A DNA stretch of 64,000 nt from Acidobacteriota bacterium. GTDB taxonomy: Bacteria; Acidobacteriota; Polarisedimenticolia; J045. This document shows positions 57,063 through 59,316 of the stretch, piece by piece; the first letter of the stretch is position 1, and every line of letters starts with the position of its first letter. A model generated the notes under the pieces. The model was given only the letters and a program-made list of their open reading frames with translations. It had not been told where the DNA came from and ran no database searches. The position numbers were made by a program, and so were the translations under genes. Location: positions 62,001 to 126,000 of the forward strand of contig JAUZRX010000028.1 in assembly GCA_030949985.1 (NCBI GenBank), read 5' to 3'.

Positions 57063-57920
57063 TTACTCGAGAAAGGCGCGGCGCGGCGGGCCGTTCTCGC
57101 GGATGAATCGGGCCATTCCCGGGTCCCAGCGCAGGAATTCCGCCTCTCCTTCCGGGTCGATCACCACGTAGGAAGAGCCGGCCAGGCGCACCAGGGTCAG
57201 CCTCGAACCGAGTCCGGCGGAGACCCAGCGCCACGCCGTCTCGTAGAGTTTGCGGTCGAGAACCTGCTCCACACTGCCGGCCACTTCCTTGTAGCCCAGG
57301 ATCCGGGTGAAGCGGTTGCCGCTGTTGCCCCCCGAGTCGAATTTCATGAAGACCTCGCTCTGACCATCACCGTCCACGTCGTGAAAGGCCAGGTCGGCCA
57401 ACCGTTCCCCGCCATCGCCGATCTTGCCCAAAAGGTGCCCTTCGCGGTCGAAAACGAGGATGCCGCCGCCGGTCTCGACGTAGAACTCGTAGCCCGGATG
57501 GTGATGCAGGTCTTCCACACCGGAACGAGGTCCCAGGGCGGTGCGGACCCGCGACCCCTCGTCCCGGGGATCGAGAAACTCCTCGAGCCACTCCCGGGCG
57601 GCGGCCTCCATCGGGCTTTGGGGCGCCCTGGAGAGCAGATCCTGCTGCTGCCGGCACAACTCGCGCAGGGCCTCCAGGCGCTCGAGGGGGCCGTCGGCGA
57701 AAGCCACCCGGGACATCGCCACCAGGCTGGCAGACGCCCGGCCGGACGGCGCCACAGGTGACCCGACGACCGGGGGCGGCGCGGCCTCGACGGCCTGCGC
57801 TGCGCTGTCCGCGGGGCGTTCGCGGTGCAGCGACAAGCAGGCGCTGGATAGGGCCACAAGGGCCGATAACGCGAAAAAGGCGACAAAAGGCCTGAACCTC
57901 TCTCTGGCGATGAAAAACAT
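57063..57920 (-). CDS. Lipoprotein with an FG-GAP-like calcium-binding segment
   Basis: This 285-residue exported lipoprotein has the lipobox LSSAC at about residues 24-28. The mature part has a Pro/Ala-rich spacer, a helical section, and a beta-rich domain with FHDVDGDGQSEVFMKF, an Asp-rich FG-GAP/integrin-like repeat. Its role is unknown. It is transcribed towards the TMTC-like gene and away from the histone gene. Confidence 0.65.
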   Translation of the reverse strand: MFFIARERFRPFVAFFALSALVALSSACLSLHRERPADSAAQAVEAAPPPVVGSPVAPSGRASASLVAMSRVAFADGPLERLEALRELCRQQQDLLSRAPQSPMEAAAREWLEEFLDPRDEGSRVRTALGPRSGVEDLHHHPGYEFYVETGGGILVFDREGHLLGKIGDGGERLADLAFHDVDGDGQSEVFMKFDSGGNSGNRFTRILGYKEVAGSVEQVLDRKLYETAWRWVSAGLGSRLTLVRLAGSSYVVIDPEGEAEFLRWDPGMARFIRENGPPRRAFLE

Positions 57921-58281
57921 TCTGCTCTGGTCCTCGCCGGGCCTCGGAGGCCCCGTTCCCCCATCTCGAAGATGGTGCCCCCGCGGCGATCGGGAAAGCG
58001 GAAAATGACGAAATCGAGGCTCTAGAAGGCCCTGAGAGCCCTTTTACAAGCTGCGCATCAGCAACCATCGGAGCCCCCCGGAGCGTGCCGCGCAGTCCCG
58101 GACCCCGGCGCAGAGTTGTGGCAGATCGGCGTCAGAATGCGAAAAAAAGCAGGAAAGGCGCAAAAAAACGACGTTTTACGCTTGATCCCGAATCGTTGCA
58201 GTGCTACCAATGACGCGCTGTACAGCAGTGGTATGAAGCAGGTTTGTACGAACCCAGGCAAACAATGGAGGTAACAACCAC
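57921..58281. other. Intergenic region upstream of the histone gene
   Basis: 361 bases without a gene. The right part, 58130-58281, is distinctly AT-rich with several A-runs (near 58141 and 58172) and holds a putative promoter at 58182-58210. A long leader of about 65 bases leads to the histone ATG. The left part contains no recognisable element. Confidence 0.5.
58182..58210 (+). promoter_or_regulatory. Putative promoter of the histone gene
   Basis: TTGATC (58182-58187) and TACCAA (58205-58210) are separated by 17 bases, with A-tract DNA upstream that could act as an UP element. The match of the -10 hexamer is weak. Confidence 0.35.
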
Positions 58282-58557
58282 ATGGCCAGGAAAGCAGCCA
58301 AGAAGAAGACCACCCGCAAGAAGAAGACCACCCGCAAGGCCGCTCCCAAGCGCGGTGGCAAGAAGAAGGCCGCCAGCAAGGAGATGCTCCTCGTCGGCAG
58401 CAAGGTGAAGGCCGCCCTGCGCGAAGCCGGTGTCAACGTCTCCGCCGACGCCCCCGCGGCACTCAACGAGGTCGTCTACTGGTACGTCGAGCAGGCTGTC
58501 AAGCGCGCCGCCGCCAACGGCCGCAAGACCGTCCGCCCCTACGACTTCGTCGTCTGA
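58282..58557 (+). CDS. Bacterial histone-fold protein with a lysine-rich N-terminal tail
   Basis: This 91-residue protein is a single histone fold preceded by a basic tail. Residues 2-33 contain 17 Lys/Arg of 32, including two tandem KKKTTR units at residues 7-18, like the tails of eukaryotic histones or H1. The fold (about 36-91) has helix 1 GSKVKAALREAG, loop 1, a long helix 2 ending AVKRAAANG, and the hallmark RKTVRPYDF of bacterial histones (RKTI-x-ED in archaeal HMf), with a shortened helix 3. It probably coats or bridges DNA. It is a single gene with a strong GGAGG site and a hairpin after the stop, which suggests high expression. Confidence 0.85.
   Translation: MARKAAKKKTTRKKKTTRKAAPKRGGKKKAASKEMLLVGSKVKAALREAGVNVSADAPAALNEVVYWYVEQAVKRAAANGRKTVRPYDFVV
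58300..58335 (+). repeat. Perfect tandem 18-base repeat encoding KKKTTR twice
   Basis: Two identical copies of an 18-base unit (AAGAAGAAGACCACCCGC) lie head to tail in the histone tail, 58300-58317 and 58318-58335. Unit number may vary between strains by slippage, changing tail length without breaking the frame. Confidence 0.85.
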
Positions 58558-58600: not shown

Positions 58601-58680
58601 TACGACTTCTCCCCAACCACACCCCGGATTCCCGATGCCTGCTCCGGCGGTCCCGGCTTTTCCGTTCCCGCGTGCAGCCG

Positions 58681-59316
58681 ATGCGTGATCGGCTGATCGG
58701 GGCTCTTCTTTTTCTGCCGGTCCCTTTCGTCCTCTACCTGCTGACCCGGCATCCCCTGGGCGTTTTCTACTCGGTGGGCCTGGCCCTGGCGCTGATGCTC
58801 ACCCATCGCTTCTACGCCCGCCCCTGGGCACGCAGGCGGGCCGTACATCGCTGCCTGTGGTGTGGCGGCAGCGCCCCCGAAGGGCCGCTGGTGGTGATCC
58901 AGGAGCCGCGGGAACTGACCACCTGGCGCTGCTGCCGCGGCTACCACGGCCTCGACCTGCGGGCCACGCTGGATCGGGCCTGGCGACTGCGCACGTGGTT
59001 GCGAGTGACGATCTTCACAGGCATCGGCGTCGTGGTGGCCCTGCCCCTGGCCGGGGCCTTCGGCGCCTGGGAGGGCTTCCAGGCCGCCGACGCTGTCGCC
59101 GCCTTCCGCCTTCTGGTGGCCCTGGCGGTGTTGCCTCTCGCGTGGCCGGGGACCCGCCGCGGCCCGATGCCGGAAAAACCGTTGCCCTCGCCTTTCCCTG
59201 TGCACATCCAGGCCCTGATCGGCTCGCGGGCCGTCCTCTGGCTTTTCCGCCTGGTCGGCGTCCTCTGGCTGGGACTCGGCCTGCTCCATGTGGCGAAGCG
59301 GAGCGGAATCGTCTAG
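58681..59316 (+). CDS. Small membrane protein with a zinc-ribbon-like segment
   Basis: This 211-residue protein has four to five membrane helices (about 5-22, 28-45, 102-122, 138-155 and 185-203). Between helices 2 and 3 there is a cytoplasmic CLWCGG and CCRGYHG segment with a possible metal-binding CxxC. I recognise no family. A GTG nine bases upstream (58672) is an alternative start. The next gene begins 9 bases after the stop, so they may be co-transcribed. Confidence 0.6.
   Translation: MRDRLIGALLFLPVPFVLYLLTRHPLGVFYSVGLALALMLTHRFYARPWARRRAVHRCLWCGGSAPEGPLVVIQEPRELTTWRCCRGYHGLDLRATLDRAWRLRTWLRVTIFTGIGVVVALPLAGAFGAWEGFQAADAVAAFRLLVALAVLPLAWPGTRRGPMPEKPLPSPFPVHIQALIGSRAVLWLFRLVGVLWLGLGLLHVAKRSGIV

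Follow-up and report, generated by a model that had tools for sequence, protein, structure and literature searches.

An FtF-type histone with a basic N-terminal tail encoded in an Acidobacteriota genome

The histone gene and its genomic context

We analyzed a 64,000-nucleotide stretch of an Acidobacteriota contig (the window), in which a forward-strand reading frame at 58282 to 58557, starting with ATG and ending with TGA, encodes a 91-amino-acid protein, MARKAAKKKTTRKKKTTRKAAPKRGGKKKAASKEMLLVGSKVKAALREAGVNVSADAPAALNEVVYWYVEQAVKRAAANGRKTVRPYDFVV. A ribosome-binding site, GGAGGT (58267 to 58272), lies 9 nt 5' of the start codon. Based on its translation, searches, a structure model, and orthologs, the gene encodes a bacterial histone of the face-to-face (FtF) type, with a basic N-terminal tail (residues 1 to 33, 58282 to 58380) followed by one histone fold (residues 34 to 91, 58381 to 58554). 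No second histone was found in the host genome, which is 3.71 Mb in size and rated 100% complete.

Across the family, the histone gene is usually flanked by a TPR/membrane protein gene on one side and a cinA-type gene on the other, and all seven other family members that carry it share at least one neighbor with the window. In genome G010 the TPR gene lies directly next to the cinA-type gene, with the histone gene absent between them, so this absence is real, and the histone cannot be indispensable across the family. Three further genomes (G001, G005, and G007) yielded neither the histone nor the cinA-type neighbor; because the neighbor is missing too, their lack of a histone may reflect an assembly gap. 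None of the neighboring genes suggests a role in chromatin. The genes flanking the histone in the window, at 57063 to 57920 (reverse strand) and 58672 to 59316 (forward strand), have no Pfam match; they encode a lipoprotein-like protein and a membrane protein and are conserved beside the histone in some relatives.

Sequences upstream of the gene

Comparison of orthologs revealed a promoter-like block on the forward strand at 58182 to 58211, TTGATC-N17-TACCAAT, with a TG before the -10. Written as TTGAW-N15/16-TGNTACCWAT, the block is present with zero to two mismatches in all eight family members, and its exact form occurs once in the host genome, at the histone gene only. Upstream of it are two A7 tracts resembling an UP element (58142 to 58148 and 58162 to 58168), and a run of at least five A residues precedes the block in seven of the eight family members. 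We read the block as a putative conserved promoter, keeping in mind that the motif was counted in the very sequences that had been used to derive it. A scan for a strict sigma-70 consensus returned nothing, and a regulon search of the host genome with the block gave about as many near matches as the reversed control.

The gene is genuine and conserved. Since the family orthologs have common neighbors and the promoter-like block, it is old and probably expressed. Codon adaptation did not serve as a proxy for expression: the value for the histone (0.80) is uninformative because ribosomal genes (about 0.72) do not separate from the background (0.71). The 5' leader also contains a near-perfect palindrome, GGTTTGTACGAACC (58241 to 58254), and the window has no other site of this kind. 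It is possibly an operator, and it was not seen upstream of the relatives' histone genes.

Fold and oligomer residues

Pfam and NCBIfam searches with the protein gave sub-threshold matches only, the top one being EccE (3.5e-4, below its cut-off), which we judged to be a composition artefact. Comparison by phmmer identified HLp of Leptospira perolatii (9qt0) as the closest solved relative, with an E-value of 1.2e-10, and gave a weaker match of 1.8e-4 to HBb of Bdellovibrio. We then relied on a structure model of a single chain, built with 12 relatives in the alignment. Its core is confidently modeled (10-residue block means of 86 to 94 over residues 41 to 90), with helices at residues 39 to 48 and 57 to 78 and a third helix of one turn at residues 86 to 88. 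The best Foldseek match is again HLp (9qt0/9qt1; TM 0.94, rmsd 0.7 Å), followed at some distance by HBb (TM about 0.82, rmsd about 1.5 Å). The bacterial histone fold and shortened third helix of the original prediction, which was made from the letters alone, are thus both borne out by the model. The RKTVRPYDF motif that it placed at the end of the histone fold is present but not terminal, as two valines still follow (RKTVRPYDFVV).

The residues that define FtF histones (here K43, R75, N79, R81, T83, and D88) are in place. The Arg/Asn pair of the dimer-dimer interface (R48 and N52 in HMM numbering) corresponds to R75 and N79, which together with R81 align with R49, N53, and R55 of HLp, the residues through which HLp tetramerizes (PMC12701072). 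Among 13 aligned sequences, N79 and R81 are invariant (13/13) and R75 is found in 12. The loop 2 motif RxTxxxxD reads R81-K-T83-VRPY-D88, with its R, T, and D invariant in alignment A1; helix 1 carries its conserved lysine, K41 and K43 both being invariant; and the modeled turn corresponds to the truncated third helix of three to four residues.

The original prediction had likened the protein to the Bdellovibrio histone, which would make it a dimer that bends DNA and forms no tetramer. HBb (Bd0055), which has no long tail, does have an equally shortened third helix and the same RKTV loop, and its structures are among the next-best matches. However, HBb has Ser and Asp where our histone has R75 and N79, and a 2024 survey states that neither the Arg nor the Asn is present in bacterial dimers of the HBb type (PMC11390915). 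HLp also fits far better by both E-value and rmsd, and the dimer-type histones found in the same class (G017 and G018) score far below the tailed FtF type. Because R75 and N79 are present here and absent from HBb-type dimers, we file the protein with the FtF histones and regard a bending dimer as unlikely. By its sequence, predicted fold, and oligomer residues, it is an FtF histone whose closest known counterpart is HLp.

HLp (PDB 9QT0 to 9QT2; PMC12701072) shares with our protein the fold, the tetramer residues, the one-turn third helix, and the RD clamp (R55-D62 in HLp numbering). It differs in its neighboring genes and in its N terminus, which has about 7 disordered residues, compared with about 33 highly basic ones here. 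Archaeal FtF histones such as HTkC (PDB 9F2C) likewise share the fold and the conserved C-terminal residues but are tailless, as are haloarchaeal plasmid-borne DUF1931/DNA-binding proteins with about 52% identity over the core.

The tail and its occurrence among relatives

The tail contains 17 Lys/Arg and no Asp or Glu in its 33 residues, as the original prediction had counted, and it is predicted to be disordered, with mean pLDDT values of 53, 47, and 57 in the first three 10-residue blocks. The two perfect KKKTTR copies also noted there are encoded by an exact 18-bp tandem repeat (58299 to 58338; 2.2 copies, 100% identity) that reads KKKTTR KKKTTR K. The copies are arranged head to tail, and a pattern search recovers both. 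A repeat as long arose in 185 of 20,000 shuffles of the tail composition; its length exceeds chance but is not extreme.

FtF histones are present in 12 of the 41 genomes of the class. Eight belong to the 12 genomes of the host's own family (the host, G002, G003, G004, G006, G008, G009, and G011), and the others are G020, G031, and G035 (family f4) and G019 (family f9). All 12 histones are tailed, with 20 to 34 residues of 35 to 55% Lys/Arg, and the 12 tails contain one acidic residue in total. Charge is kept across these tails and sequence is not. Three FtF histones from other classes of the phylum are tailless (L052 to L054, of which L054 is cut at the C-terminal end), as are 13 from Elusimicrobiota (L055 to L067). 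Among the genomes compared, the basic tail is a class-level trait. Gains and losses cannot be counted, since our tree of 32 histone cores rests on 59 columns and leaves 19 of its 29 inner branches open. In the same class, G017 (L015/L030) and G018 (L014/L029) have dimer-type histones instead, with NKRKTLRPQDL and NKRKTLKPQDL, respectively.

This distribution bears on whether the tail has a function at all. If the tail were a neutral by-product of slippage during replication of an AAG-rich sequence, this would fit the exactness of the 18-bp duplication, the hypervariability of the tails, and the lack of a tail in close FtF relatives from Elusimicrobiota and from other classes. Such an origin is harder to reconcile with tails that stay at 35 to 55% Lys/Arg, almost free of acidic residues, in every FtF histone of the class and in three families, and we give a functionless tail a low probability.

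The original prediction treated tails as rare among bacterial histones, which does not hold for the FtF subgroup. The 2024 survey calls tails common, and mostly basic, among bacterial FtF histones (PMC11390915), and a 2023 study found long tails absent from most bacterial singlet histones (PMC10627809); our data agree with both statements. The tailed FtF kind has thus already been described, and our contribution is its occurrence in one little-sampled class of Acidobacteriota. The word Acidobacteriota does not appear in the main text of the survey, and its supplementary tables may hold the phylum (PMC11390915).

Phage records gave no match. In two viral contigs from IMG/VR (L092 and L093), the encoded histones have a long N-terminal tail with AT-hook-like RGRP cores (MPRGRPRK... 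and KKRGRPKGS...). These histones end in RKTVRxxDL, unlike published "phage histones," which the survey describes as lacking the RxTxxxD motif (PMC11390915).

Other chromatin proteins in the genome

The same genome has five matches to the HU/IHF family, so the histone is not supported as its sole chromatin protein. Searching for the repeat DNA led us to two H1-like lysine-rich proteins with KKKVA/KKKAT-type repeats, one of 184 amino acids (L094:1720-2274, G000:C19) and one of 96 amino acids (L095:1349-1639, G000:C28), the latter about 60 kb before the window. The longer one scores 18.5 bits with the HC2 profile (PF07382), a weak match below the cut-off of 40, and the histone does not match this profile. 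A high-confidence model of the shorter one as a single 94-residue helix was discounted as a low-complexity, single-sequence model built with no alignment.

Proteins of this kind occur patchily in the class. Their make-up of KKKAT, KKKVA, and KKKTT units is that of the histone tail, and tails in relatives are built of like units (KKKVAKKKVA in G008, KKKATKKKAS in G006). Bacterial H1-like proteins of the HC2/AlgP type have a similar make-up but lack a histone fold, and the resemblance is compositional. The shared units fit a tail that would act like an H1 arm and that may have arisen by fusion or by independent slippage.

We also looked for signs that the tail is regulated, as the original prediction had suggested. 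A signaling platform comparable to eukaryotic H3/H4 tails, working through lysine acetylation or methylation, would suit an N-terminal, predicted disordered segment rich in Lys, Arg, Ala, and Thr. Such a tail would be expected to conserve its sequence and modification sites, whereas here sequence, length, and spacing vary freely and the charge stays. In addition, the SET domain (PF00856) had no match in the host genome or in five others, leaving SET-type regulation of the tail unsupported. We therefore consider a regulated tail very unlikely.

Discussion

Histone tails are often seen as a eukaryotic invention, with a few archaeal exceptions. For the tailed histone described here, the likely function is nonspecific DNA wrapping, in which the tail would serve as an electrostatic clamp. 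HLp assembles into tetramers around which about 60 bp of DNA is wrapped (Hu et al. 2025, PMC12701072), and we favor, with reasonable confidence, an analogous nucleoid-associated alpha3 FtF histone whose tetramer and wrapping we infer from this likeness. Two handshake dimers would join into a closed tetramer through two C-terminal interfaces, and about 60 bp of DNA would wrap nonspecifically around its positive belt. The four tails, with about 17 positive charges each, could then neutralize the wrapped DNA or a neighboring strand and so increase both affinity and compaction, comparable to what a linker histone H1 does with its lysine-rich arm. The histone would not act alone, but alongside several HU/IHF proteins and the two H1-like lysine-rich proteins.

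A more specific version, which we put forward only tentatively, sees an FtF core joined, in this class of Acidobacteriota, to a linker-histone-like lysine-rich arm, so that one protein would both wrap DNA as a tetramer and condense linker DNA or bridge neighboring DNA. Core histone and H1 arm would then share one polypeptide, an arrangement reached independently of eukaryotes.

The setting differs from that of Leptospira, which lacks HU: in Acidobacteriota, FtF histones are documented alongside several HU/IHF proteins. The phylum also offers a natural comparison, as very similar FtF cores carry a tail in one class but none in other classes or in Elusimicrobiota. Because these cores are so similar, what a basic tail adds to a minimal histone is directly testable.
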